A stretch of DNA of 64,000 nt from Azoarcus sp. Aa7 (lineage in GTDB: Bacteria > Pseudomonadota > Gammaproteobacteria > Burkholderiales > Rhodocyclaceae). The notes beneath the pieces are model-generated. The model was not told where the DNA came from and did not search any database. It was given only the letters and a program-made list of their open reading frames with translations. Made by a program: the position numbers and the translations under genes. This document shows, one piece after another, positions 2,096-57,314 of the stretch. Each line of letters starts with the position of its first letter. Within the stretch, counting starts at the first letter, position 1. Location of the stretch: NCBI RefSeq assembly GCF_014822185.1, contig NZ_QVLR01000009.1, positions 62,001 through 126,000 on the forward strand. Direction: 5' to 3'.

Positions 2096-2656
2096 TCAGG
2101 AACGCGTGGATCGATGGCGTCGCGCCCGTGACGCCCGGCGGCCCCACACGAACACGTACTGGGCGCCCGACCACACGATGGTCACGAAGGTCGCCAGCGT
2201 CAGGACGAAGATCCACGTGCCGCCGTCCACGAAGCCAGCACCGATCGCGAGGATGCTCGCGAGCAGCAGGAATTCCAGCGCCGTGTTGAGCTTCGATACC
2301 GTGCTCGGCGCCATTTCCACCGTCCCGATCAGGTAGTGATACGCGAGCGCCCCGCCGACAATCACGAGGTCCCGCGTCACGACGGCGGCGGCGAGCCACC
2401 ACGGCAGCCGCCCGTCGAAGGCCAGCAGCAGCGTCACCGTGAGCATCGTCAGCTTGTCGGCGACCGGATCGGCGATCGCGCCGAAACGCGTGCGCAGGTT
2501 CCAGCGGCGCGCGATCACGCCGTCGGCGAGATCCGACAGCGCCGAGACGATGAAGAGTGCCAGCGCGATCCCGAACTCGCCCTGGCGCAGCAGTGCGGCA
2601 AGCGGCGGAATCAACGCGACACGCAGCAGCGTGATGGTGTTGGGGACGTTGGGCAT
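2096..2656 (-). CDS. CDP-alcohol phosphatidyltransferase family protein (PgsA-like)
   Basis: A 186-residue integral membrane enzyme of phospholipid synthesis that transfers a phosphatidyl group from CDP-diacylglycerol to an alcohol. The full catalytic signature is present: D42, D45-G46, A49-R50, G59, D63 and D67. Several hydrophobic segments follow. The ATG at 2656 (MPNVPNTITLLR) is preferred because PgsA-like proteins begin this way; an in-frame ATG 33 bases upstream would add a non-homologous tail. Its length matches phosphatidylglycerophosphate synthase, but the acceptor alcohol cannot be read from sequence, so no symbol is given. It converges with the IclR gene. Confidence 0.85.
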   Translation of the reverse strand: MPNVPNTITLLRVALIPPLAALLRQGEFGIALALFIVSALSDLADGVIARRWNLRTRFGAIADPVADKLTMLTVTLLLAFDGRLPWWLAAAVVTRDLVIVGGALAYHYLIGTVEMAPSTVSKLNTALEFLLLASILAIGAGFVDGGTWIFVLTLATFVTIVWSGAQYVFVWGRRASRARRHRSTRS

Positions 2657-2741
2657 GTGGCCGGACCACCGTGGGCTCGTCGCCCACATTATGCATGGTC
2701 GGCCGCCGCGCTCCGCCGATGCTGCGGCGCGGTGCCCGGTA

Positions 2742-4604
2742 CTAACGCACGAAGCGCCTGCTTTCGCGCACCACCTCGTCGAGCAGCGCCTGCTTCTCCG
2801 CCAGCACCTGCTTGCCTTCCTCGCGCGCGACCGGGTGGTCCTGCGCGTCGAACACGCTGTAGCGGAAGAAGGAGCTGCGCGTATAGGGGAAGGAGATCTT
2901 GTGTTCGCCGTCGAAGATGCCCATGAAGTCGTACTCGCCCAGCACGAGGTTGTCCGCGGTGTGATCGAGCGTATCCGCGGAGCTGTAGCTGCGCGACGGC
3001 GCGGTGACGCCGAGGTATTCGAGCAGCGTCGGCGAAATCTGCAGATGCGAGGTGCGGTGCGTGACGACCTGCGGCTGCTGGCCCGGCATGCGGATCACCA
3101 GCGGCACGCGGATCTGCTCCTCGGGGAAGGTGTTGCCGTGGCCGTGGCCCCAGTGGCCCTTCTCCATGAATTCCTCGCCGTGGTCGCCGGTGAACAGGAT
3201 CACCGTGTTATCCAGTTCACCCTGCGCCCGCAGGTGCTCCAGCAGGCGTCCGATCTGCGCATCGACGTGATGCGCGGCGTTGATGTAGCGCGCGTGGATC
3301 GCGTCGATGTTGTCGCGCAGGTCGAGTTTCATGTAGTCGAGCTGACGCAGGTAGTCCTGGCGCAGCGCGGTTTCCTCCGGGAAGGTGTAGGGCGCGTGGG
3401 TCGACTCGAAGAACATGAAACCGTAGAAGGGCTGGTCGGCATGGCGACGGTCGAACTTGCCGATCAGGTCGTCGATGTTCTGCGCGTCGCGCCGCCACGG
3501 TTCGCCCTTCTGCAGTTCCTGCAGGTTCGCCTCGGGCACGCCGGTGAACACCGTGTGGCGCAGCTCCGGGTAGTCGAAGCTCTGGCTGGTGTGGATCGCG
3601 AGCTGGTAGTCGTGGTCGCGCAGGAAGTTCATCAGCGCGGGGGCGACGCGCTGCCGCTCGAAGCTGTACCAGTACGGCGCATACAGGCCGTAGAACATCG
3701 AGAACAGGCCCATGCGCGTGCGGTTGCCGCCGCTGTAGTGCTGCTCGTAGCGCGTACCCTGCTGCGACAGCTTCCACAGGTTGGGCGTGATCTCGGGGCT
3801 CAGCAGATCCCAGCGGAACGATTCGCCGACCAGCATGATGAGGTTGGGCCGCTTCGCGACCTCCTTCGCGGGGAGATCGTGGCCGGGGTAATCGACGGTG
3901 CCGCCCGCGAGACGCAGCTCCTTCACCGCTGCCTGCTCGATGCCCATGCGCTTGAACACCTTGCGCGCGCCGGTGTGCAGGTGGAAGGGAATCGCCTCGG
4001 CCGCCTGCAGGTAGTCCTCCTTGCCGACGTGCTCGCTGTAGGCATACACCACCTCCTCCACCGAGAGCACCGAAAACAGCACCATCACGGCGGTGACGAG
4101 GGAGCGCGGCGACGGCGCCCAGCCATGCGTCGCGTGGCGGTACAGCAGCACCAGCGCGGCGGCGCACAGGACCGGGAAGACGGACACCTGCATCGCCAAC
4201 GAACGCGTCGTCGCCTCGGTCGCGCCCAACGCCTCGACGCCGCCCGGCGTCGTGAGCAGGTTCCACACGAAGGCGTTGAAGTGGAACTGGTACAGCTCGT
4301 ACAGGCGGTAATCCGCAAAGATCGCCAGCAGCACGGCGCTGCCGCCGACGAAGGCCGCTGCGTAGGGCAACCGTACCCGCCATCCGGGGATGCTGCGCAG
4401 CAGCCGGGCCAGCGCCGAGCTGAGGATCCACAGCGGCGCAACGTACAAGGCCGCGTAGCCCGCCGTCGCCGCGACGAGGAACATGCGGGCGCCGGCCGAC
4501 GCCACTTCGGCATGCGGCCAGAAGAGCGCGATCATCGCGAAAACCGCGACGTAGAGCAGCGCGTAGTAGCGTCGCAGCACGAGCTGGGTCTGGGTGAAAG
4601 GCAT
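2742..4604 (-). CDS. YejM-like (DUF3413-type) membrane sulfatase-fold protein, paralogue 1
   Basis: An inner-membrane protein of 620 residues: about five N-terminal transmembrane segments (to about residue 190), then a periplasmic alkaline-phosphatase-superfamily domain. Visible motifs are LVGESFRWD (metal-site strand), the SGGNRTRMGLFSMFYG block with a candidate nucleophile Thr296, FFESTHAPY, NAAHHVD and GDHGEEF (473-479). The family includes YejM/PbgA, which senses lipopolysaccharide, and phosphoethanolamine or phosphoglycerol transferases. ATG 4604 is chosen over GTG 4640 because it has a GGGA ribosome site. A paralogue lies at 49875-51755, and both genes carry the same kind of upstream operator array. 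The substrate is unknown. Confidence 0.8.
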   Translation of the reverse strand: MPFTQTQLVLRRYYALLYVAVFAMIALFWPHAEVASAGARMFLVAATAGYAALYVAPLWILSSALARLLRSIPGWRVRLPYAAAFVGGSAVLLAIFADYRLYELYQFHFNAFVWNLLTTPGGVEALGATEATTRSLAMQVSVFPVLCAAALVLLYRHATHGWAPSPRSLVTAVMVLFSVLSVEEVVYAYSEHVGKEDYLQAAEAIPFHLHTGARKVFKRMGIEQAAVKELRLAGGTVDYPGHDLPAKEVAKRPNLIMLVGESFRWDLLSPEITPNLWKLSQQGTRYEQHYSGGNRTRMGLFSMFYGLYAPYWYSFERQRVAPALMNFLRDHDYQLAIHTSQSFDYPELRHTVFTGVPEANLQELQKGEPWRRDAQNIDDLIGKFDRRHADQPFYGFMFFESTHAPYTFPEETALRQDYLRQLDYMKLDLRDNIDAIHARYINAAHHVDAQIGRLLEHLRAQGELDNTVILFTGDHGEEFMEKGHWGHGHGNTFPEEQIRVPLVIRMPGQQPQVVTHRTSHLQISPTLLEYLGVTAPSRSYSSADTLDHTADNLVLGEYDFMGIFDGEHKISFPYTRSSFFRYSVFDAQDHPVAREEGKQVLAEKQALLDEVVRESRRFVR

Positions 4605-4666
4605 GTAGGGTTTCCCGGTGCGTGGTTCGGACGGATTCACAATCGCGACAGGATGGAGCGGGCGCC

Positions 4667-4705
4667 GTCAAACGCCCGTCGAACGCATGTCAAGACATCG
4701 TGAAA
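4667..4705 (-). promoter_or_regulatory. four-fold 11-bp-spaced operator array upstream of YejM-like paralogue 1
   Basis: Read on the minus strand, four half-sites TTTCAC, CTTGAC, TTCGAC and TTTGAC are separated by exactly five bases each (starts on the plus strand 4667, 4678, 4689, 4700). Eleven-base direct repeats like this are the usual binding pattern of OmpR-family response regulators. The array ends 62 bp before the start codon at 4604. It matches the array at 49791-49829. Confidence 0.65.
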
Positions 4706-10907: not shown

Positions 10908-11586
10908 CGGCACTCAGGCGATAGCCGGCGCCACGCACCGTATGGATCAGCGGCGGCAACCCCGGCAGGTCGATCTTCGCGCGCAGGTTGGAGATATGCA
11001 CGTCGATGACATTGGTCTGGGGATCGAAATGGTAGTTCCACACGGCCTCGAGCAGCATCGCGCGCGTGACGACCTGCTCCGAATGGCGCAGCAGGAATTC
11101 CAGCAACTGGAACTCCTTCGGCTTCAGGTCGATCTTCCGTCCGCCGCGTGCGACGCTGCGGCGCAGGAGATCCATCTCCAGGTCGGCCACGGCGAGCCGC
11201 GTGTTCGGCGCCCCTTCCCGGGACGCCGCCCCCCTGCGCGCCAGCGCTTCCAGACGCGCGACGAGCTCGATCAGCGAGAACGGCTTCACGAGGTAGTCGT
11301 CGCCGCCCGCGCGCAGGCCGGCGACCCGGTCGTCGACTTCGCCCAGCGCGCTGAGGATCACGACCGGCGTCGCGACGTTCGACGCGCGCAGCGTGCGCAG
11401 CACCGTGAGGCCGTCCACGCGCGGCAGCATGCGGTCGAGGACGAGCACGTCGTAGCTTTCGGTGGTGGCGAGAAACAGCCCGTCGCGCCCGTCGGCGGCG
11501 ACATCGACGATGTGCCCCGCTTCCTGCAGCCCCTTGCGGATGTAGGCGGCCTGCTGCGGATCGTCTTCGACGAGGAGTATCTTCAT
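10897..11586 (-). CDS. OmpR-family response regulator
   Basis: A 229-residue regulator with a receiver domain (residues 1-120: acidic pair EDD at 7-9, phosphoacceptor Asp in LVLDRMLP, the switch residue in VILSA, Lys in LVKPF) and a C-terminal winged helix (from about 130) with KEFQLLEFLLRH and VRGAGYRL. The sequence resembles the CopR/CusR metal-response branch, but no copper genes lie here, so the signal is unknown. It overlaps the kinase downstream and is divergent from a second two-component pair at 11740. Confidence 0.9.
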   Translation of the reverse strand: MKILLVEDDPQQAAYIRKGLQEAGHIVDVAADGRDGLFLATTESYDVLVLDRMLPRVDGLTVLRTLRASNVATPVVILSALGEVDDRVAGLRAGGDDYLVKPFSLIELVARLEALARRGAASREGAPNTRLAVADLEMDLLRRSVARGGRKIDLKPKEFQLLEFLLRHSEQVVTRAMLLEAVWNYHFDPQTNVIDVHISNLRAKIDLPGLPPLIHTVRGAGYRLSADVA

Positions 11587-11739: not shown

Positions 11740-12402
11740 ATGAGACTGCTGCTGATCGAAGACGACCCGATGATCGGTGCCGGCGTGCAGCAGGCGCTGC
11801 GCCAGGACGGCTATGCCGTCGACTGGGTGCGCGACGGCGTGGCCGGCGAACTCGCGGCACGCGACAACCCCTACGAGCTGCTGCTGCTCGACATCGGTCT
11901 GCCGCGCCGTGACGGCATCGAGCTGCTGCAGCGCCTGCGCACGGCCGGCCATGCGATGCCGGTGCTCGTGCTCACGGCCCGCGACGCCGTCGCCGACCGC
12001 ATCCGCGGGCTGGATGCCGGCGCGGACGACTACCTCGTCAAACCCTTCGACCTCGACGAGCTCTCGGCGCGCGTGCGGGCGCTGCTGCGCCGCCAGCGCG
12101 GCCAGGCCAGTCCGGTCCAGACGCTGGGCGCGCTGCAGGTCGATCCCGCAAGCCGCGCGGTGACGCTCGCGGGCGCGCCGGTGCGGCTCTCGGCGCGCGA
12201 ATTCGCGCTGCTGTCTGCGCTGCTGGAACACCCCGGCCGGCCGCTGTCGCGCAGCCAGATCGAGGAGCGCGTCTACGGCTGGGACGAAGAGGTCGACAGC
12301 AATGCCGTAGAGGTGCATATCCACTCGCTGCGGCGCAAGCTCGGCGCGGACTGGATCCGCAACCTGCGCGGCGTCGGCTATTACGTGCCGGAGCGGCCAT
12401 GA
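11740..12402 (+). CDS. OmpR-family response regulator (QseB/PmrA-like)
   Basis: A 220-residue regulator: receiver (MRLLLIEDDPMIGAG, LLLLDIGLP with the phosphoacceptor Asp, VLTA, LVKPFDLDEL) and a winged-helix output domain (SAREFALLSALLEHPG, NAVEVHIHSLRRKLG, LRGVGYYV). Among families it is closest to the QseB/PmrA type. Its stop overlaps the kinase start (ATGA). A CTTAAG-type tandem box, the kind QseB and PmrA bind, lies beyond the kinase before the DegP gene at 13732-13748, which suggests that DegP is a target. Confidence 0.9.
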   Translation: MRLLLIEDDPMIGAGVQQALRQDGYAVDWVRDGVAGELAARDNPYELLLLDIGLPRRDGIELLQRLRTAGHAMPVLVLTARDAVADRIRGLDAGADDYLVKPFDLDELSARVRALLRRQRGQASPVQTLGALQVDPASRAVTLAGAPVRLSAREFALLSALLEHPGRPLSRSQIEERVYGWDEEVDSNAVEVHIHSLRRKLGADWIRNLRGVGYYVPERP

Positions 12403-48802: not shown

Positions 48803-48905
48803 TCGCCCGCCTCCGACGGGGTGGTCATCCCGGCCACCCCGCGCTGCGTTAGAATCGGCAACCGGCCACCACGCGCACCCGCCCTGCGCAGGAACGTCAT
48901 ATTCC

Positions 48906-49709
48906 ATGCCACTGATCTCGAACGAAAAACGCCGCCGCGGCATCTACATCCTGCCCAATCTATTCACCACCGCTGCCCTGTTCGCCGGCTTCTATGCGAT
49001 CGTGCAGGCGATGAATCAACGCTTCGAGGTGGCGGCCGTGGCGATCTTCGTTGCCATGGTGCTCGACGGCCTGGACGGCCGCGTCGCGCGCCTGACGCGC
49101 ACGCAGAGCGCCTTCGGCGCCGAATACGACTCGCTGTCCGACATGGTGTCGTTCGGCGCGGCCCCCGCGCTGGTGGTGTACGAATGGGCGCTCAAGGACA
49201 CCGGGAAATTCGGCTGGATCGCGGCCTTCATCTATTGCGCGGGCGCCGCGCTGCGCCTGGCCCGTTTCAATACCAACATCGACGTCATCGACAAGCGCTT
49301 CTTCCAGGGCCTGCCGAGTCCGGCAGCGGCCGCGCTGGTGGCCGGCCTGGTGTGGGTCGTCACCGACCTGGGGCTCGCCGGCCAGGACGTGCGCTGGCTT
49401 GCCGGCATGCTCACGATCTTCGCGGGCGTGTCGATGGTCAGCAACGTGCTGTTCTGGAGCGGCAAGGACATCAACCTGCGCAAGAGCGTGCCCTTCATCG
49501 TCGTGATCGCGCTGGTGATGGCGTTCGCGCTGGTATCCAGCTACCCGCCGGGGGTGCTCTTCGGGCTCTTCCTGGTCTACGCCGGCTCCGGCTACGTCGT
49601 GTACGTGATGCGCTGGATGAAGAAACGGCGCGCGGGCGCGAGCCCCGCCGCGCCCGCGCCGGAGGCCGCTGGCAGCGCCGAGGACGAAGCGGACTCCACT
49701 CCGAAGTAG
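48906..49709 (+). CDS. pssA: CDP-diacylglycerol-serine O-phosphatidyltransferase
   Basis: Makes phosphatidylserine from CDP-diacylglycerol and serine in the membrane. The 267-residue polytopic protein has ILPNLFTTAALFAGFYAIV and the full CDP-alcohol signature D54, D57-G58, A61-R62, G71, D75, D79 within DGLDGRVARLTRTQSAFGAEYDS. A charged C-terminal tail (ASPAAPAPEAAGSAEDEAD) follows the last helix. It supplies the substrate of Psd just upstream. Confidence 0.95.
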   Translation: MPLISNEKRRRGIYILPNLFTTAALFAGFYAIVQAMNQRFEVAAVAIFVAMVLDGLDGRVARLTRTQSAFGAEYDSLSDMVSFGAAPALVVYEWALKDTGKFGWIAAFIYCAGAALRLARFNTNIDVIDKRFFQGLPSPAAAALVAGLVWVVTDLGLAGQDVRWLAGMLTIFAGVSMVSNVLFWSGKDINLRKSVPFIVVIALVMAFALVSSYPPGVLFGLFLVYAGSGYVVYVMRWMKKRRAGASPAAPAPEAAGSAEDEADSTPK

Positions 49710-49790
49710 ACTCGGCATGGCGGCGGACGCCCGGACGTCCGCCTGCCCTCCCCGCCCGCATCCGCGGGCCGGGACGCCCGTCTCCCGGGC

Positions 49791-49829
49791 CTTCACGAAT
49801 TCTTCACCAGGTCTTGAGCGCCGCTTGAC
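49791..49829 (+). promoter_or_regulatory. four-fold 11-bp-spaced operator array upstream of YejM-like paralogue 2
   Basis: Half-sites CTTCAC (49791), CTTCAC (49802), CTTGAG (49813) and CTTGAC (49824) are each separated by exactly five bases. The array ends 45 bases before the start codon at 49875. The pattern is that of an OmpR-family operator and matches the array at 4667-4705. The regulator encoded at 51802-52473 is the natural candidate. Confidence 0.7.
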
Positions 49830-49874
49830 GGCCGGACTGCGAGCATCCTCGCCTGCCCGCATCCGGAGTCCTGC

Positions 49875-51755
49875 ATGTCCGCCCTGCCCTCATCGCGCAA
49901 GCTCAACGCCTACTTCCTGATCACCTGGCTGGTGGCGCTCGTGCAGCTGTTGTCGCAGCAGGGCGCGGGCGACTACGCAAGCCCCGCGGTGGCCGGATGG
50001 ACGCTCGCAGCGACGCTGTCCTACGCCTTCATGTACCTGCTGCCGAGCGTCGCGATCGGACACGCGCTGCGCACGCTGCTGGCCAGCCGCAAGACGTTTC
50101 GACGCGGGCCGGCGATCCTCGGCACGACGATGATCGTGCTGACGGGGCTCACGCAGGTGCTGCTCTTCTCGGACCGCGTGATCCACGAGATGTACGGCTT
50201 CCACATCAACGGCTTCGTCGTGAATCTGGTGTTCACGCCGGGCGGCATCGCCTCGCTCGGCGCCAGCCGCAGCACCGAAATCACCGCCGGCGCGATCATC
50301 CTCGCGCTGTGTGCGCTGCAGGCGGCGGCGTGGGTGTGGGTGGCGCGGCGCGGCACGAGCGCAGGCGGGTGGAGGCTGCGCGGGGCGTGGGCGCTCGCGC
50401 TGTTCTTCGTGCTGACCACCGGCGAGCGCATCGCCTACGGCTACAGCGAGATGTCGAACTACCAGCCCATCCTGTTCGCCAGCGAGCGTTTCCCGCTGTA
50501 TCAGCCGCTGACCTTCCGCAACTTCGCGCAGAACCTGGGCTTCAAGGTGGATCAGGCCACCGCGCGCAGCATGCAAGTGCGCGAAGAGAGCCTGAGCTAT
50601 CCGCAGCAGCCGCTGCGCGTGAAGGCGCCGGAGAAGCCCATGAACATCGTGTGGCTGGTCGCCGAGTCGCTGCGCTTCGATATGCTCGACCCGAAGATCA
50701 TGCCGCGCCTGTGGACGTTCTCGAACGACGCCGTGCGCCTGGAAAAGCACTTCAGCGGCGGCAACATGACACAGATGGGCGTGTTCTCGATGTTCTACGG
50801 CCTGTACGGCAACTACTGGTTCCCGATGCTGGCCGCGCGCCGCGCGCCGGTGCTGATGGACGTGCTGCAGCAGCAGAACTACCAGTTCAGCCTGAACACG
50901 AGCCAGCGCTTCACCTACCCCGCCTTCGACAAGACGGTGTTCGCCAACATGCGGCCGGAAGACCTGCACCCGCTCGAAGGCGGCGCGCCGGCCTGGCAGC
51001 GCGACGTGCGCAACATCGACGGGCTGATCGACTTCATCGACCGGCGCGATCCGGCCCGGCCATTCATGACGTACATGTTCTTCGAGTCGACGCACGCGAA
51101 CTACGACTATCCGCCCGAGGCCGAGATCGCCACCCCGGTGCTGCAGGACTTCAACTACCTGACAGCGGACTTCGGCGCGCAGATCGGGCAGATCAAGAAC
51201 CGCTACATCAACGCGGCGCATCATGTCGACAGCCAGATCGGGCGCATGATCGACCACCTGCAGAAGCGCGGCCTGCTCGACGACACCATCGTGATCGTGC
51301 TCGGCGATCACGGCGAGGAGTTCATGGAGCGCAGCCGCTGGGGTCACAGCGCGGAGTTCAACCGCTTCCAGACGAGCACGCCGGCGGTCATCCGCGTGCC
51401 CGGCCACGCGCCGCGCGTCGTCGCCGGCATCACCAGCCACCTGGACATTCCCGCTACCCTGATGCCGCTGCTGGGAGTACAGAATCCCGTTGAGGACTAC
51501 TCGCTGGGCCACGATCTGCTCGCGCCGGATTTTCACCGCGACTACGCCGTGGCCGCAGACTGGAACCGACTCGCCTACATCGGCGACGACTACAAGGTGA
51601 CTTTCCCGGTCAATGCGATCGGCGCCGTGCGCAACGAGGCGACCGACGGCGATGATCGCCCGCTCGCCAGCGCGGACGAGGCGATCGCATCGATTCGCTC
51701 GGCGATGGTCGAGATCATGGCGAATCTGGCGCGATTCAGCCGACACCGCGGATAA
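49875..51755 (+). CDS. YejM-like (DUF3413-type) membrane sulfatase-fold protein, paralogue 2
   Basis: A 626-residue inner-membrane protein with about five N-terminal transmembrane helices (to about 190) and a periplasmic alkaline-phosphatase-fold domain: LVAESLRFDML, SGGNMTQMGVFSMFYGLYG with candidate nucleophile Thr299, FFESTHANY, NAAHHVD and GDHGEEF (477-483). It is clearly homologous along its length to 2742-4604. The two may sense or modify lipids or lipopolysaccharide. It is followed after 46 bases by a response regulator and kinase, probably in one operon, under the array at 49791-49829. Confidence 0.82.
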   Translation: MSALPSSRKLNAYFLITWLVALVQLLSQQGAGDYASPAVAGWTLAATLSYAFMYLLPSVAIGHALRTLLASRKTFRRGPAILGTTMIVLTGLTQVLLFSDRVIHEMYGFHINGFVVNLVFTPGGIASLGASRSTEITAGAIILALCALQAAAWVWVARRGTSAGGWRLRGAWALALFFVLTTGERIAYGYSEMSNYQPILFASERFPLYQPLTFRNFAQNLGFKVDQATARSMQVREESLSYPQQPLRVKAPEKPMNIVWLVAESLRFDMLDPKIMPRLWTFSNDAVRLEKHFSGGNMTQMGVFSMFYGLYGNYWFPMLAARRAPVLMDVLQQQNYQFSLNTSQRFTYPAFDKTVFANMRPEDLHPLEGGAPAWQRDVRNIDGLIDFIDRRDPARPFMTYMFFESTHANYDYPPEAEIATPVLQDFNYLTADFGAQIGQIKNRYINAAHHVDSQIGRMIDHLQKRGLLDDTIVIVLGDHGEEFMERSRWGHSAEFNRFQTSTPAVIRVPGHAPRVVAGITSHLDIPATLMPLLGVQNPVEDYSLGHDLLAPDFHRDYAVAADWNRLAYIGDDYKVTFPVNAIGAVRNEATDGDDRPLASADEAIASIRSAMVEIMANLARFSRHRG

Positions 51756-51801: not shown

Positions 51802-52473
51802 ATGCGGCTACTGTTGGTGGAAGACAACCGCGACATTCTTGCGAATCTCGCGGATTACCTCGCGCTGAAGGGCTACGAGGTGGATTGCGCGCAGGACGGG
51901 CTGACCGGCCTGCATCTCGCCGCGACCCAGCAGTACGACCTGATCGTGCTCGACGTGATGCTGCCCGGCATGGACGGCTTCACGCTGTGCCAGCGCCTGC
52001 GCGACAGCGAGCGCAGCCACGTGCCGGTCATCATGCTGACCGCGCGCGACACGCTCGACGACCGGCTGCAGGGCTTCCGCACCGGCGCGGACGACTACCT
52101 GACCAAACCCTTCGCCCTGTCCGAACTGGCGGCCCGCATCGCCGCGGTGCTCAAGCGCAGCCGGGGCGGCGGTCGGCGCGTACTCGGCGTCGCGGACCTG
52201 CAGTTCGACCTCGACACGCTCGCGGTCACGCGCGCCGGGCAGACCCTGCACGTCGGGCCGATCGGTCTGAAGCTCCTCGAACTGCTGATGCAGAAGAGCC
52301 CCAGCGTCGTCCGGCGCGAGGCACTCGAGAGCGCGCTATGGGGCGATTCGCCCCCCGACAGCGACAGCCTGCGCAGCCACATCCACACACTGCGGCAGCA
52401 GATCGACAAACCCTTCGGCTCCCCGCTGCTGCATACCGTGCACGGGGTCGGCTACCGGCTGGCCTCGGCCTAG
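51802..52473 (+). CDS. OmpR-family response regulator
   Basis: A 223-residue regulator: receiver (MRLLLVEDNRDILANLADYL, LIVLDVMLPGMDGF with phosphoacceptor Asp, MLTARD, LTKPFALSEL) and winged helix (IGLKLLELLMQKSP, SLRSHIHTLRQQID, VHGVGYRL). The recognition segment contains SLRSHIHTLRQ. It lies in the YejM-like paralogue 2 operon, whose promoter has an OmpR-type array, so autoregulation is likely. No SD of note is seen (ACTGGAATCCGC). Confidence 0.92.
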   Translation: MRLLLVEDNRDILANLADYLALKGYEVDCAQDGLTGLHLAATQQYDLIVLDVMLPGMDGFTLCQRLRDSERSHVPVIMLTARDTLDDRLQGFRTGADDYLTKPFALSELAARIAAVLKRSRGGGRRVLGVADLQFDLDTLAVTRAGQTLHVGPIGLKLLELLMQKSPSVVRREALESALWGDSPPDSDSLRSHIHTLRQQIDKPFGSPLLHTVHGVGYRLASA

Positions 52474-52541: not shown

Positions 52542-53810
52542 ATGACGGCACCGCAGAGCCTCGCGTCGCGCATCGTCGCGGCTTTCGTCCTGATGGCCGC
52601 CGTCGTTGCGGGCGTCTTCGCGCTGATCGTCGTCAACGCGATCGACATGGTGGAAACCCGCCTCGTCAGCGATGCGATGAACCGCCAGCTCGATTTCATC
52701 ATCGAGGAATCGGACGAGGGACGGTTTCCGGCGCTCGGCCCCGGTCTGGACCTGTATGTCGCACCGGTCGGCGCGAGTGCCTCGCTGCCCGCATGGCTCG
52801 CCCCGCTGCAGGAAGGGCTGCATGAAACCGAGAACGACGACGAGGCCTATCACGTGCTGGTGCGCGACCGCAGCGGCAAGCGCCATGTCCTCGTGCTCGA
52901 CCAGGAGGACTTCGAGCGGCGCGAGACCATGCTGTTCGTCGCGGTCACCGCCGGAGTCGTGATTTCCATCCTCGCCGCGGCCGTGCTCGGCCGGGCGCTC
53001 GCCCGCACGGTGATCTCGCCGGTCGTGCGCCTGTCGGGCCAAGTGCAGCACCGCGACCAGCTGCTGCCGCTCGCACCGCCACTCGCCGCCGAATACGCAG
53101 AGGACGAGGTCGGCAAGCTCGCCGCGGCGTTCGACGAGACGCTCGGAAGCCTGCGCGCGGCGCTGGAACGCGAACAGCTCTTCACCAGCGATGTGAGTCA
53201 CGAGCTGCGCACGCCGCTGATGGTGATCGCCAGCTCCTGCGAACTGCTCGAGGCGCAGGAACTGGCATCGCCACAGCGCGCACAGGTCGAACGTATCGCC
53301 CGCGCCTGCGCGGAGATGCAGGAGCTGGTAGAGACGTTCCTGGGCCTCGCGCGCGCGCCGCAGGAGCGCGGCACGAAGCTCGCCGGCACCTCGCTCGCCG
53401 CTGTGGCGTCCGAGCAGCTGCACCGTTGGCAACCCGAGGCGGCAGCGCGCGGCCTCGCGCTGGATCTCGTCAGCGAGAGCGCGGACGACGGGGTCTATCC
53501 GGCCCCCCTGTTGCGCGCGGTGCTGACGAACCTCGTGCGCAACGCGATCCACTACACCGATGACGGCTTCGTGCGCGTGGTGCTGCGCGATGGCGGCTTT
53601 TCGGTGCTCGATTCCGGCGTAGGGATTCCTGAGGCGGAGCGGGCGTTGGTGTTCCGGTCGTTCGCGCGCGGGGGCAGCACGCGCGGGGACGGCATCGGCA
53701 TCGGACTGTCGCTGGTGCAGCGCATCTGCGACCGGCAGGGGTGGCGGATCACCCTGTCTCCCCGCGAAGGCTGCGGCTGCGAGTTTCGCGTCGAGCTGCG
53801 CACCTCGTGA
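52542..53810 (+). CDS. sensor histidine kinase
   Basis: A 422-residue kinase. Transmembrane segment 1 (about 13-33), a periplasmic sensor of about 100 residues that is acidic (ETENDDEAYHVL), segment 2 (about 130-152), a HAMP-like linker and the H-box FTSDVSHELRTPLMVIAS follow. The ATPase domain has NLVRNAIHYTDDGF, DSGVGIPEAE and GDGIGIGLSLV. An acidic periplasmic patch is a feature of PhoQ-like cation or peptide sensors, though this is inference. It is the partner of 51802-52473. Confidence 0.9.
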   Translation: MTAPQSLASRIVAAFVLMAAVVAGVFALIVVNAIDMVETRLVSDAMNRQLDFIIEESDEGRFPALGPGLDLYVAPVGASASLPAWLAPLQEGLHETENDDEAYHVLVRDRSGKRHVLVLDQEDFERRETMLFVAVTAGVVISILAAAVLGRALARTVISPVVRLSGQVQHRDQLLPLAPPLAAEYAEDEVGKLAAAFDETLGSLRAALEREQLFTSDVSHELRTPLMVIASSCELLEAQELASPQRAQVERIARACAEMQELVETFLGLARAPQERGTKLAGTSLAAVASEQLHRWQPEAAARGLALDLVSESADDGVYPAPLLRAVLTNLVRNAIHYTDDGFVRVVLRDGGFSVLDSGVGIPEAERALVFRSFARGGSTRGDGIGIGLSLVQRICDRQGWRITLSPREGCGCEFRVELRTS

Positions 53811-56212: not shown

Positions 56213-56871
56213 TCCGGACATGCGAGGCGGTACCCCAGGCCGCGCACGGTCTCGATCAGGCCCGGCGGCAGCTTCTTGCGCAGACGCCCGACGAAGACCT
56301 CGATCGTGTTCGAGTCGCGCTCGAAGTCCTGCGCATAGATGTGCTCGGTCAGCTCGGCGCGCGACACGACCTCCCCTTGGCGGTGCATCAGGTAGCTCAG
56401 CACGCGCAGCTCGTGGCTGGTCAGCGTCACCGCCTGCCCTTCGACCGTGACGCGCCCGCCGCGCGTGTCGAGCAGCACCGGGCCGCAGCGCAGCTCGGCG
56501 CTCGCATGCCCCGCACTGCGCCGGATCAGCGCGCGCAGGCGGGCGAGCAGTTCCTCCATGTGGAAGGGCTTGGTCAGGTAATCGTCGGCACCGGCGTCGA
56601 TGCCGGCGACCTTCTCGTGCCAGTTGTCGCGTGCGGTCAGGATCAGCACCGGCATCGTCCGCCCCGCCGCGCGCCACTTCTTCAGCACCGTCAGCCCGTC
56701 CATCTGCGGCAGGCCGAGGTCCAGCACGACCGCATCGAGCGCTTCGACCTCGCCCATGAAATGCGCATCGCGCCCGTTGTCGGCGCAATCGACCGCATAG
56801 CCCGCCTCGCGCAGCGCCTGTGCGAGCTGCGCCGCCAGCGTCGGCTCGTCTTCCACGACGAGGATGTGCAT
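56209..56871 (-). CDS. OmpR-family response regulator (PhoP-like)
   Basis: A 220-residue regulator: receiver (MHILVVEDEPTLAAQLAQAL, VVLDLGLPQMDGL with phosphoacceptor Asp, ILTARDNWHEKVAGIDAGADDY in pieces, LTKPFHMEEL) and a winged helix (LTSHELRVLSYLMHRQG, DSNTIEVFVGRLRKKL, VRGLGYRLACPE). The HEKVAGIDAGADDYLTKPFHMEE stretch in pieces is typical of PhoP. It is coupled to the PepSY gene (TGATG) upstream. The array at 57276-57314 is a likely binding site. Confidence 0.92.
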   Translation of the reverse strand: MHILVVEDEPTLAAQLAQALREAGYAVDCADNGRDAHFMGEVEALDAVVLDLGLPQMDGLTVLKKWRAAGRTMPVLILTARDNWHEKVAGIDAGADDYLTKPFHMEELLARLRALIRRSAGHASAELRCGPVLLDTRGGRVTVEGQAVTLTSHELRVLSYLMHRQGEVVSRAELTEHIYAQDFERDSNTIEVFVGRLRKKLPPGLIETVRGLGYRLACPE

Positions 56872-57275: not shown

Positions 57276-57314
57276 CTGAACCGCAGCTGAACGCCGTCTT
57301 CACCGTGCGTTCAG
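57276..57314. promoter_or_regulatory. 11-bp-spaced operator array between PepSY-PhoPQ-like and SHP operons
   Basis: CTGAAC (57276), CTGAAC (57287), CTTCAC (57298) and GTTCAG (57309) start exactly 11 bases apart. The outer elements are inverted, so both divergent transcripts may be controlled. The array lies 70 bases from the PepSY start and 95 from the SHP-like start. Confidence 0.55.

Follow-up and report, generated by a model that had tools for sequence, protein, structure and literature searches.

Direct repeats with an 11-bp period are common in the OmpR family of response regulators. In Enterobacteriaceae, the PmrA box is made up of 11-bp tandem hexamers with the half-site YTTAAK, and pmrCAB consists of a phosphoethanolamine-transferase-superfamily gene followed by genes for a response regulator (RR) and a histidine kinase; the 'cre tag' of CreB is TTCAC-N6-TTCAC. 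For ColR of Pseudomonas putida, the published consensus, YYNASNNYTTTTTSAC, is a TTSAC repeat with an 11-bp period, and the sequences of seven footprints are tabulated (PMC2689224, Table 1). The ExxE motif of the partner kinase ColS is reported to be required for zinc and iron sensing, and expression of P. putida colRS itself is described as not metal-responsive (PMC4074579). In Xanthomonas, the ColRS orthologue RaxRH lies beside alkaline-phosphatase-superfamily and ArnT-type genes in an eptA-lpxE-arnT cluster (PMC8306577), and ColRS control of EptA, LpxE and ArnT-type genes has already been described (PMC8306577, PMC9952513).

The window, by which we mean the whole stretch of 64,000 nucleotides from Azoarcus sp. 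Aa7 analysed here, contains two repeat arrays of this general kind. An initial annotation had noted four minus-strand half-sites exactly 11 bp apart before a YejM-like gene (yejM1, 2742–4604, minus strand), with a twin array 45 kb away before a second such gene (yejM2, 49875–51755, plus strand), and both are present as described. Read along the minus strand from 4705 to 4667, the yejM1 array consists of TTTCAC, CTTGAC, TTCGAC and TTTGAC, separated by gatgt, atgcg and gggcg; the yejM2 array (49791–49829, plus strand) consists of CTTCAC, CTTCAC, CTTGAG and CTTGAC, separated by gaatt, caggt and cgccg. The consensus proposed for both, YTT[CG]AC, is matched exactly by six of the eight half-sites, but the third site of each array (TTCGAC and CTTGAG) deviates from it. 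The arrays have 18/24 bases in common in their half-sites and 7/15 in their spacers. Their flanks are unrelated (18/60 identical bases upstream, 16/60 downstream), so the two are not one recently duplicated promoter fragment. The last half-site lies 62 bp from the ATG of yejM1 and 45 bp from that of yejM2. Both arrays are intergenic between genes backed by Pfam or third-codon-position GC, and the four open frames that overlap them (2439–4703 and 48821–49828, plus; 3217–4671 and 48960–49862, minus) do not have a coding-like GC pattern.

Repeats of this regularity were very rare in randomized sequence. A three-site pattern allowing at most two mismatches matched the window four times, always inside the two arrays, whereas shuffled versions gave a mean of 0.04 matches and never more than one. 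Across the whole genome, allowing at most one mismatch gave 6 matches, located at 4 places, and a reversed control pattern gave 0; with two mismatches allowed, the counts (8 against 6 for reversed controls) were near background. The initial annotation had asked whether such arrays are as frequent within coding regions as before genes. All four places found with at most one mismatch are intergenic between supported genes, one of them (on contig C106) with a 111-aa open frame overlapping the array, but half-site pairs in the same genome showed no enrichment (9 against 12 reversed controls). The two-mismatch matches lie within a called ORF (C80:79086) and between called ORFs (C103:131118). One array-like match, before an OmpW-like gene (C62:79296 on; positions 1501–1545 of locus L005), was not counted as a target because it overlaps the palindrome TTGACattcGTCAA, which we take to be an FNR/Dnr-type motif, although the match is kept in three other genomes (G001, G002 and G016). 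Elsewhere in the window, TGAAC, TGAAC, TTCAC and TTCAG follow one another at an 11-bp period (57276–57314); read on the minus strand, they are GTTCA repeats before a PhoQ-like kinase and its RR, and are perhaps another OmpR-family operator.

The RR encoded immediately behind yejM2 (51802–52473, plus strand) had been named as the probable regulator of both paralogues. We compared it with a set of ColR loci, the best 80 of 547 confirmed relatives, comprising 64 Pseudomonas-type loci and 16 non-Pseudomonas loci (L081–L096), here called beta loci, which include four from Aromatoleum and one titled Pseudomonadota only (L088). Within these best 80, this OmpR/PhoB-family RR is 96–98% identical to that of the four named Aromatoleum genomes, which makes it probable that the window belongs to this genus. 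The identity is 80–85% to twelve further loci, titled for the most part Rhodocyclales or Betaproteobacteria, and 76–78% over 222–223 aa to the 64 Pseudomonas-type loci (172/223 residues for two P. putida loci). The 14 other full-length RR relatives in its own genome are 32–45% identical to it. We therefore call it a ColR orthologue, an assignment made by pairwise identity rather than from a tree. The adjoining sensor kinase (52542–53810, plus strand) is 49–60% identical to the kinases of 21 listed non-Aromatoleum loci, and its ERRE motif, just before TM2, aligns with the EERE of Pseudomonas ColS in an alignment of 12 kinases, which marks it as a ColS orthologue. A regular-expression search found an ExxE-type motif in 77/81 kinases, the exceptions being L087, L091, L095 and L096.

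Curated models gave the RR no other name: among the 25 of 99 NCBIfam matches listed, it fell below every cut-off, the best being a heavy-metal CzcR/CopR-type model at 192.6 of 279.2 bits. QseB was rejected because the RR is under its curated cut-off. The locus resembles the PmrA box and pmrCAB in its 11-bp tandem hexamers and in having a phosphoethanolamine-transferase-superfamily gene followed by RR and kinase genes, but the half-site is YTTSAC here rather than YTTAAK and the RR scores far under the PmrA cut-off (177.9 against 330 bits). The cre tag has a near-identical half-site and period, but the RR is also under the CreB model's cut-off (135 against 273 bits).

The initial annotation had by implication treated the operator as new, yet both the regulator family and the consensus had been described (PMC2689224). 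In keeping with ColRS targets, the promoters carry an 11-bp direct repeat of TTSAC. We built a half-site matrix from the seven P. putida footprints alone (PMC2689224), with no sequence from the window, and the two arrays ranked first (yejM2, 27.4) and second (yejM1, 25.1) in the window; the next separate match scored 16.9, and the maximum over 60 first-order Markov windows was 15.3. The exact YYNASNNYTTTTTSAC 16-mer is not in the window, each array having two mismatches to it, in the T-tract, whereas it lies inside the arrays of 8/16 beta loci and in 42/64 Pseudomonas-type loci (best 80 of 547). Outside their core, the P. putida footprints themselves scored best at -11 (six usable of seven) and +22 (7/7), which suggests that additional weak half-sites are characteristic of ColR sites.

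Conservation of the arrays follows that of the regulator within the genus. An array precedes yejM1 in 8/8 same-genus genomes with the gene and yejM2 in 8/8, as well as in G026, and all eight same-genus genomes carrying this RR at 89% identity or more have both. One genome (G034) encodes a 62% YejM2 homologue and no RR at E <= 1e-80, and its array score is -5.2. Among the best 80 of 547 loci, all 12 beta loci with a complete region have the array upstream of yejM2 (scores 21.3–28.8). Four-site scores of at least 20 occurred at period 11 in 16/16 beta loci and at periods 7–10 and 12–15 in 0/16; three-site scores of at least 18 occurred at period 11 in 44/64 Pseudomonas-type loci and in none at the other periods examined. 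The latter loci are partly circular as a test, because PP0900 and PP0903 of P. putida contributed sites to the matrix. Of their 48 three-site matches, 45 are found some 100 bp upstream of colR on the opposite strand, the PP0900 position (again among the best 80). Strict four-site arrays (score at least 20) are rare there (9/64 of the same set). In one further genome (G010), which has a ColR at 78%, no array beside colRS reached our thresholds.

A broader survey of 61 relatives, in which one array may count as two or more matches, gave three-site matches in 10/12 genomes with an RR at E <= 1e-80 (49 matches, 4 controls) and in 15/49 without (23 matches, 9 controls). Similar sites may be used by other OmpR-type regulators, or part of these counts may be background. 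In the fetched loci, where gene calls came from an ORF/GC3 script, several individual arrays stood out. Two (G022 and G050; L058 1930–1968 and L061 4347–4385) come right after RR-kinase pairs of a ColR-like subfamily and precede an OmpA-family gene and a sulfate-permease-family gene. Five 11-bp-phased TTT[CGA]AC units occur in G055 (L060 4835–4884, minus strand), which lacks this ColR. In G011 and G004 (L164 6237–6263 and L165 6232–6258, minus strand), an array separates the 67% ColR relative from a divergently oriented sulfatase-family gene and is followed after 11 bp by an A2/T6 hexamer, an arrangement like that in Pseudomonas. Finally, a three-site array scoring 23.0 precedes a tyrosine-phosphatase-like gene (P0003) in one species only (G016:C14; L067 5217–5244, minus strand).

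The arrays are also held at a fixed distance from a -10-like hexamer. In the window, CATCCT (4650–4655, minus strand) and GAGCAT (49841–49846, plus strand) each begin 11 bp past the last half-site. At exactly this distance, 40/40 beta arrays had a hexamer whose second base is A and whose sixth is T, compared with at most 6/40 at any other offset from 0 to 29. These 40 arrays were picked by score (at least 20, 16 or 13, depending on the group) and not by their -10, and are mostly orthologues representing about five promoter types: yejM2, yejM1, the gene behind colS, the methyltransferase gene and the ArnT-like gene. In 46 Pseudomonas arrays such a hexamer lay one additional turn away, at offset 22, in 45, but also at offset 5 in 33, which makes the Pseudomonas -10 less certain. 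A 17-bp spacer would place the -35 between half-sites 3 and 4, where neither window promoter has a -35-like hexamer (cgccgc and gggcgt). PhoB reportedly stands in for the -35 contact at its promoters. Given the -10 phasing and the lack of a -35 hexamer, ColR is likely to act as an activator here, and by analogy the layout is probably one of PhoB-type activation in which ColR replaces the -35 element.

Together, these comparisons very probably identify 4667–4705 and 49791–49829 as operators of the ColRS two-component system. The choice of the RR at 51802–52473 as regulator of both paralogues also held up, in that ColR orthology, the footprint-like layout and arrays in 8 genomes make it the best candidate from sequence. 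We propose that ColS would use its ExxE motif to sense metal ions in excess and then phosphorylate ColR, and that phosphorylated ColR dimers would bind head to tail on the four TTSAC half-sites, which recur every 11 bp. With the last half-site 11 bp before a weak -10 hexamer, ColR would substitute for a -35 element. At yejM2-colR-colS this would amount to positive autoregulation; the other targets would be yejM1 with a CDP-alcohol phosphatidyltransferase gene and an ArnT-like glycosyltransferase locus, all with envelope-lipid functions. ColR, already known as a regulator of metal stress, is likely to activate a minimum of three gene groups involved in envelope remodelling.

We weighed several alternatives to this reading. 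The arrays could serve another OmpR-family regulator of the genome, for example those encoded at about 10912–11586 (minus), 11740–12384 (plus) or, beside the PhoQ-like kinase, 56221–56871 (minus), with the position of colR behind yejM2 being incidental. The genome does hold 14 full-length relatives at 32–45% identity, 11-bp direct repeats are a common feature of the family, and some relatives lacking an RR at E <= 1e-80 have three-site matches too. We nevertheless consider this unlikely, as the matrix that picked out the arrays was derived from ColR footprints alone, array presence tracks this ColR within the genus at three promoters, and arrays lie beside colRS in 16/16 beta and 44/64 Pseudomonas-type loci (best 80 of 547).

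A second alternative accepts ColR as the regulator and reverses its effect: lying across the -35 region, it would block transcription of yejM1 and yejM2. ColR is reported to repress some P. putida promoters, PP0268 and PP0737 (PMC4074579), but in the window no -35 hexamer stands where the conserved -10 would place it, and phasing at exactly 11 bp in 40/40 arrays is in line with an activator, which leaves repression improbable. That the repeats are accidental, or are -35 hexamers (TTGAC) that happen to be in phase, has a negligible probability. The last half-site is -35-like and half-site pairs alone are at background, but the shuffles, the footprint matrix, the restriction of arrays to one period and their conservation across genera all contradict this reading, and the last TTGAC is only 11 bp from the -10-like hexamer. 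The claim of the initial annotation that two such four-site arrays are hard to explain by chance was therefore upheld, both by the shuffles and by footprint-matrix scores set against simulated windows.

The two membrane proteins behind the arrays are 36% identical to each other. Both exceed the Pfam gathering scores for DUF3413 (31.2 for yejM1 and 63.8 for yejM2; cut-off 27.1) and Sulfatase (PF00884; 153 and 130; cut-off 25). Against the YejM/LapC/PbgA model (NCBIfam NF038282) they score 139 and 186 bits with a cut-off of 825, so they are YejM-like rather than YejM. Aligned by eye with the catalytic residues of Neisseria meningitidis EptA as reference (PMC8306577), both keep the catalytic E, T and D-H (E264, GGNxT and D478-H479 in yejM2). 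Where yejM1 and yejM2 have GDHG, the solved YejM chain in the alignment has AGRG; with their catalytic set intact, the two proteins may, from sequence, be active transferases. A CDP-alcohol phosphatidyltransferase gene adjoins each: one (2096–2689, minus strand; PF01066, E 2.7e-30) begins 52 bp past the yejM1 stop, and the other (48906–49709, plus strand) stops 81 bp short of the yejM2 array.

The two-gene regulon originally proposed proved too small. Judging from gene order, colR and colS are probably transcribed together with yejM2, with likely autoregulation of ColRS, and the CDP-alcohol phosphatidyltransferase gene behind yejM1 is a probable operon partner, predicted to be co-transcribed with it. 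A third target candidate is a three-site array on another contig (C106:26616–26643) before an ArnT-like gene, which is followed by a gene of the SdiA-regulated family. The ArnT-like product scores above the PMT_2 threshold, and at 81.5 bits it is below the cut-off of 567 for ArnT (NF009784). Eleven genomes of the genus encode this glycosyltransferase; in the 7/7 of them that also have this ColR, the array is present (scores 7.5–20.7) with TAGAGT 11 bp downstream, whereas the promoter score is 1.5 in the other four, two of them without ColR (G006, G008) and two with the 67% relative (G004, G011). The weakest operator, in G005, has two good half-sites and scores 7.5, compared with up to 6.6 at other periods.

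We also considered how two such promoters came to lie 45 kb apart. Among the 12 non-Aromatoleum beta loci (best 80 of 547), three (L085, L086 and L089) have a yejM1 orthologue inside the colRS cluster, 59–61% identical to yejM1 of the window compared with 35–37% to yejM2. The L089 cluster runs [array]-yejM2-colR-colS-[array]-yejM1; between the second array and yejM1, L085 and L086 carry a methyltransferase-type gene (by Pfam in L085, by eye in L086). An EptA-type gene follows yejM1 in L085, where it is cut by the locus end, and in L089, and a CptA-type gene follows the second array in L056/L090, L088 and L094; the remaining beta loci have other genes at this position or are cut short or unclassified. 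The four Aromatoleum loci (L081–L084) have no array scoring at least 20 after colS, and in the five genomes with yejM1 and yejM2 on one contig, 45–49 kb separate the two genes. With both paralogues and their arrays in one colRS cluster in 3/12 relatives, the two operators probably descend from a single such cluster; the simplest history would be that the yejM1 part, preceded by an operator, was separated from it in Aromatoleum. The gene after colS in the window is of the TerB/DUF533 type, and there is no PP0903-type methyltransferase or PAP2 gene beside colRS. A methyltransferase gene lies beside colRS in L161 (G010) and L085 by Pfam and in L093 below the Pfam cut-off, and a PAP2-like gene does so in G004 and G011, by eye.

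Compared with ColRS of P. putida and P. aeruginosa, the system described here has an orthologous RR, a kinase with ExxE at the same position, TTSAC half-sites 11 bp apart, and envelope and lipopolysaccharide targets (PMC2689224, PMC4074579). It differs in that colRS follows a YejM-like gene that has a ColR-type array in front of it, with predicted autoregulation; as P. putida colRS is reported not to be metal-induced, such autoregulation would itself be a difference. The targets here are YejM-like and ArnT-like, and the published 16-mer has a T-tract that is missing from the window arrays. An EptA query (E <= 1e-10) found no EptA/CptA relative in the genome analysed (G000) or in G001, G002 and G016, nor any relative in G034; in G026 it found one EptA and one CptA match. 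RaxRH is alike in being a ColRS orthologue beside alkaline-phosphatase-superfamily and ArnT-type genes (PMC8306577). Its gene set is different, and the comparison covers genes, the term 'binding site' being absent from the main text of that paper. In open-licence PMC full texts, no paper contained both 'ColR' and 'YejM', the search pairing ColR with this name rather than with its synonyms PbgA or LapC, and among those mentioning ColR with direct repeats only PMC2689224 concerns ColRS, the others being judged by their listing.

What appears to be new, from sequence comparison, are additional ColRS targets and four-site operators. A wider reading, which we put forward tentatively and regard as possible rather than likely, is that ColR operators are three-to-four-site 11-bp arrays phased with the -10, the published 16-mer being just their upstream half, and that in Aromatoleum an autoregulated ColRS would drive two catalytically intact YejM-like transferases that replace the missing EptA/CptA, with metal stress controlling a YejM-type enzyme. 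We marked this reading down because of the 9/64 four-site arrays among Pseudomonas-type loci (best 80 of 547) and the peak at offset 5. The analysis gives an otherwise anonymous repeat a candidate regulator, ColR, and takes ColRS, with a different set of targets, beyond Pseudomonas and Xanthomonas to Rhodocyclales. It also suggests that the published ColR consensus of two half-sites is part of a longer, -10-phased array, and that YejM-like proteins with an intact active site may be controllable by a metal-sensing two-component system.
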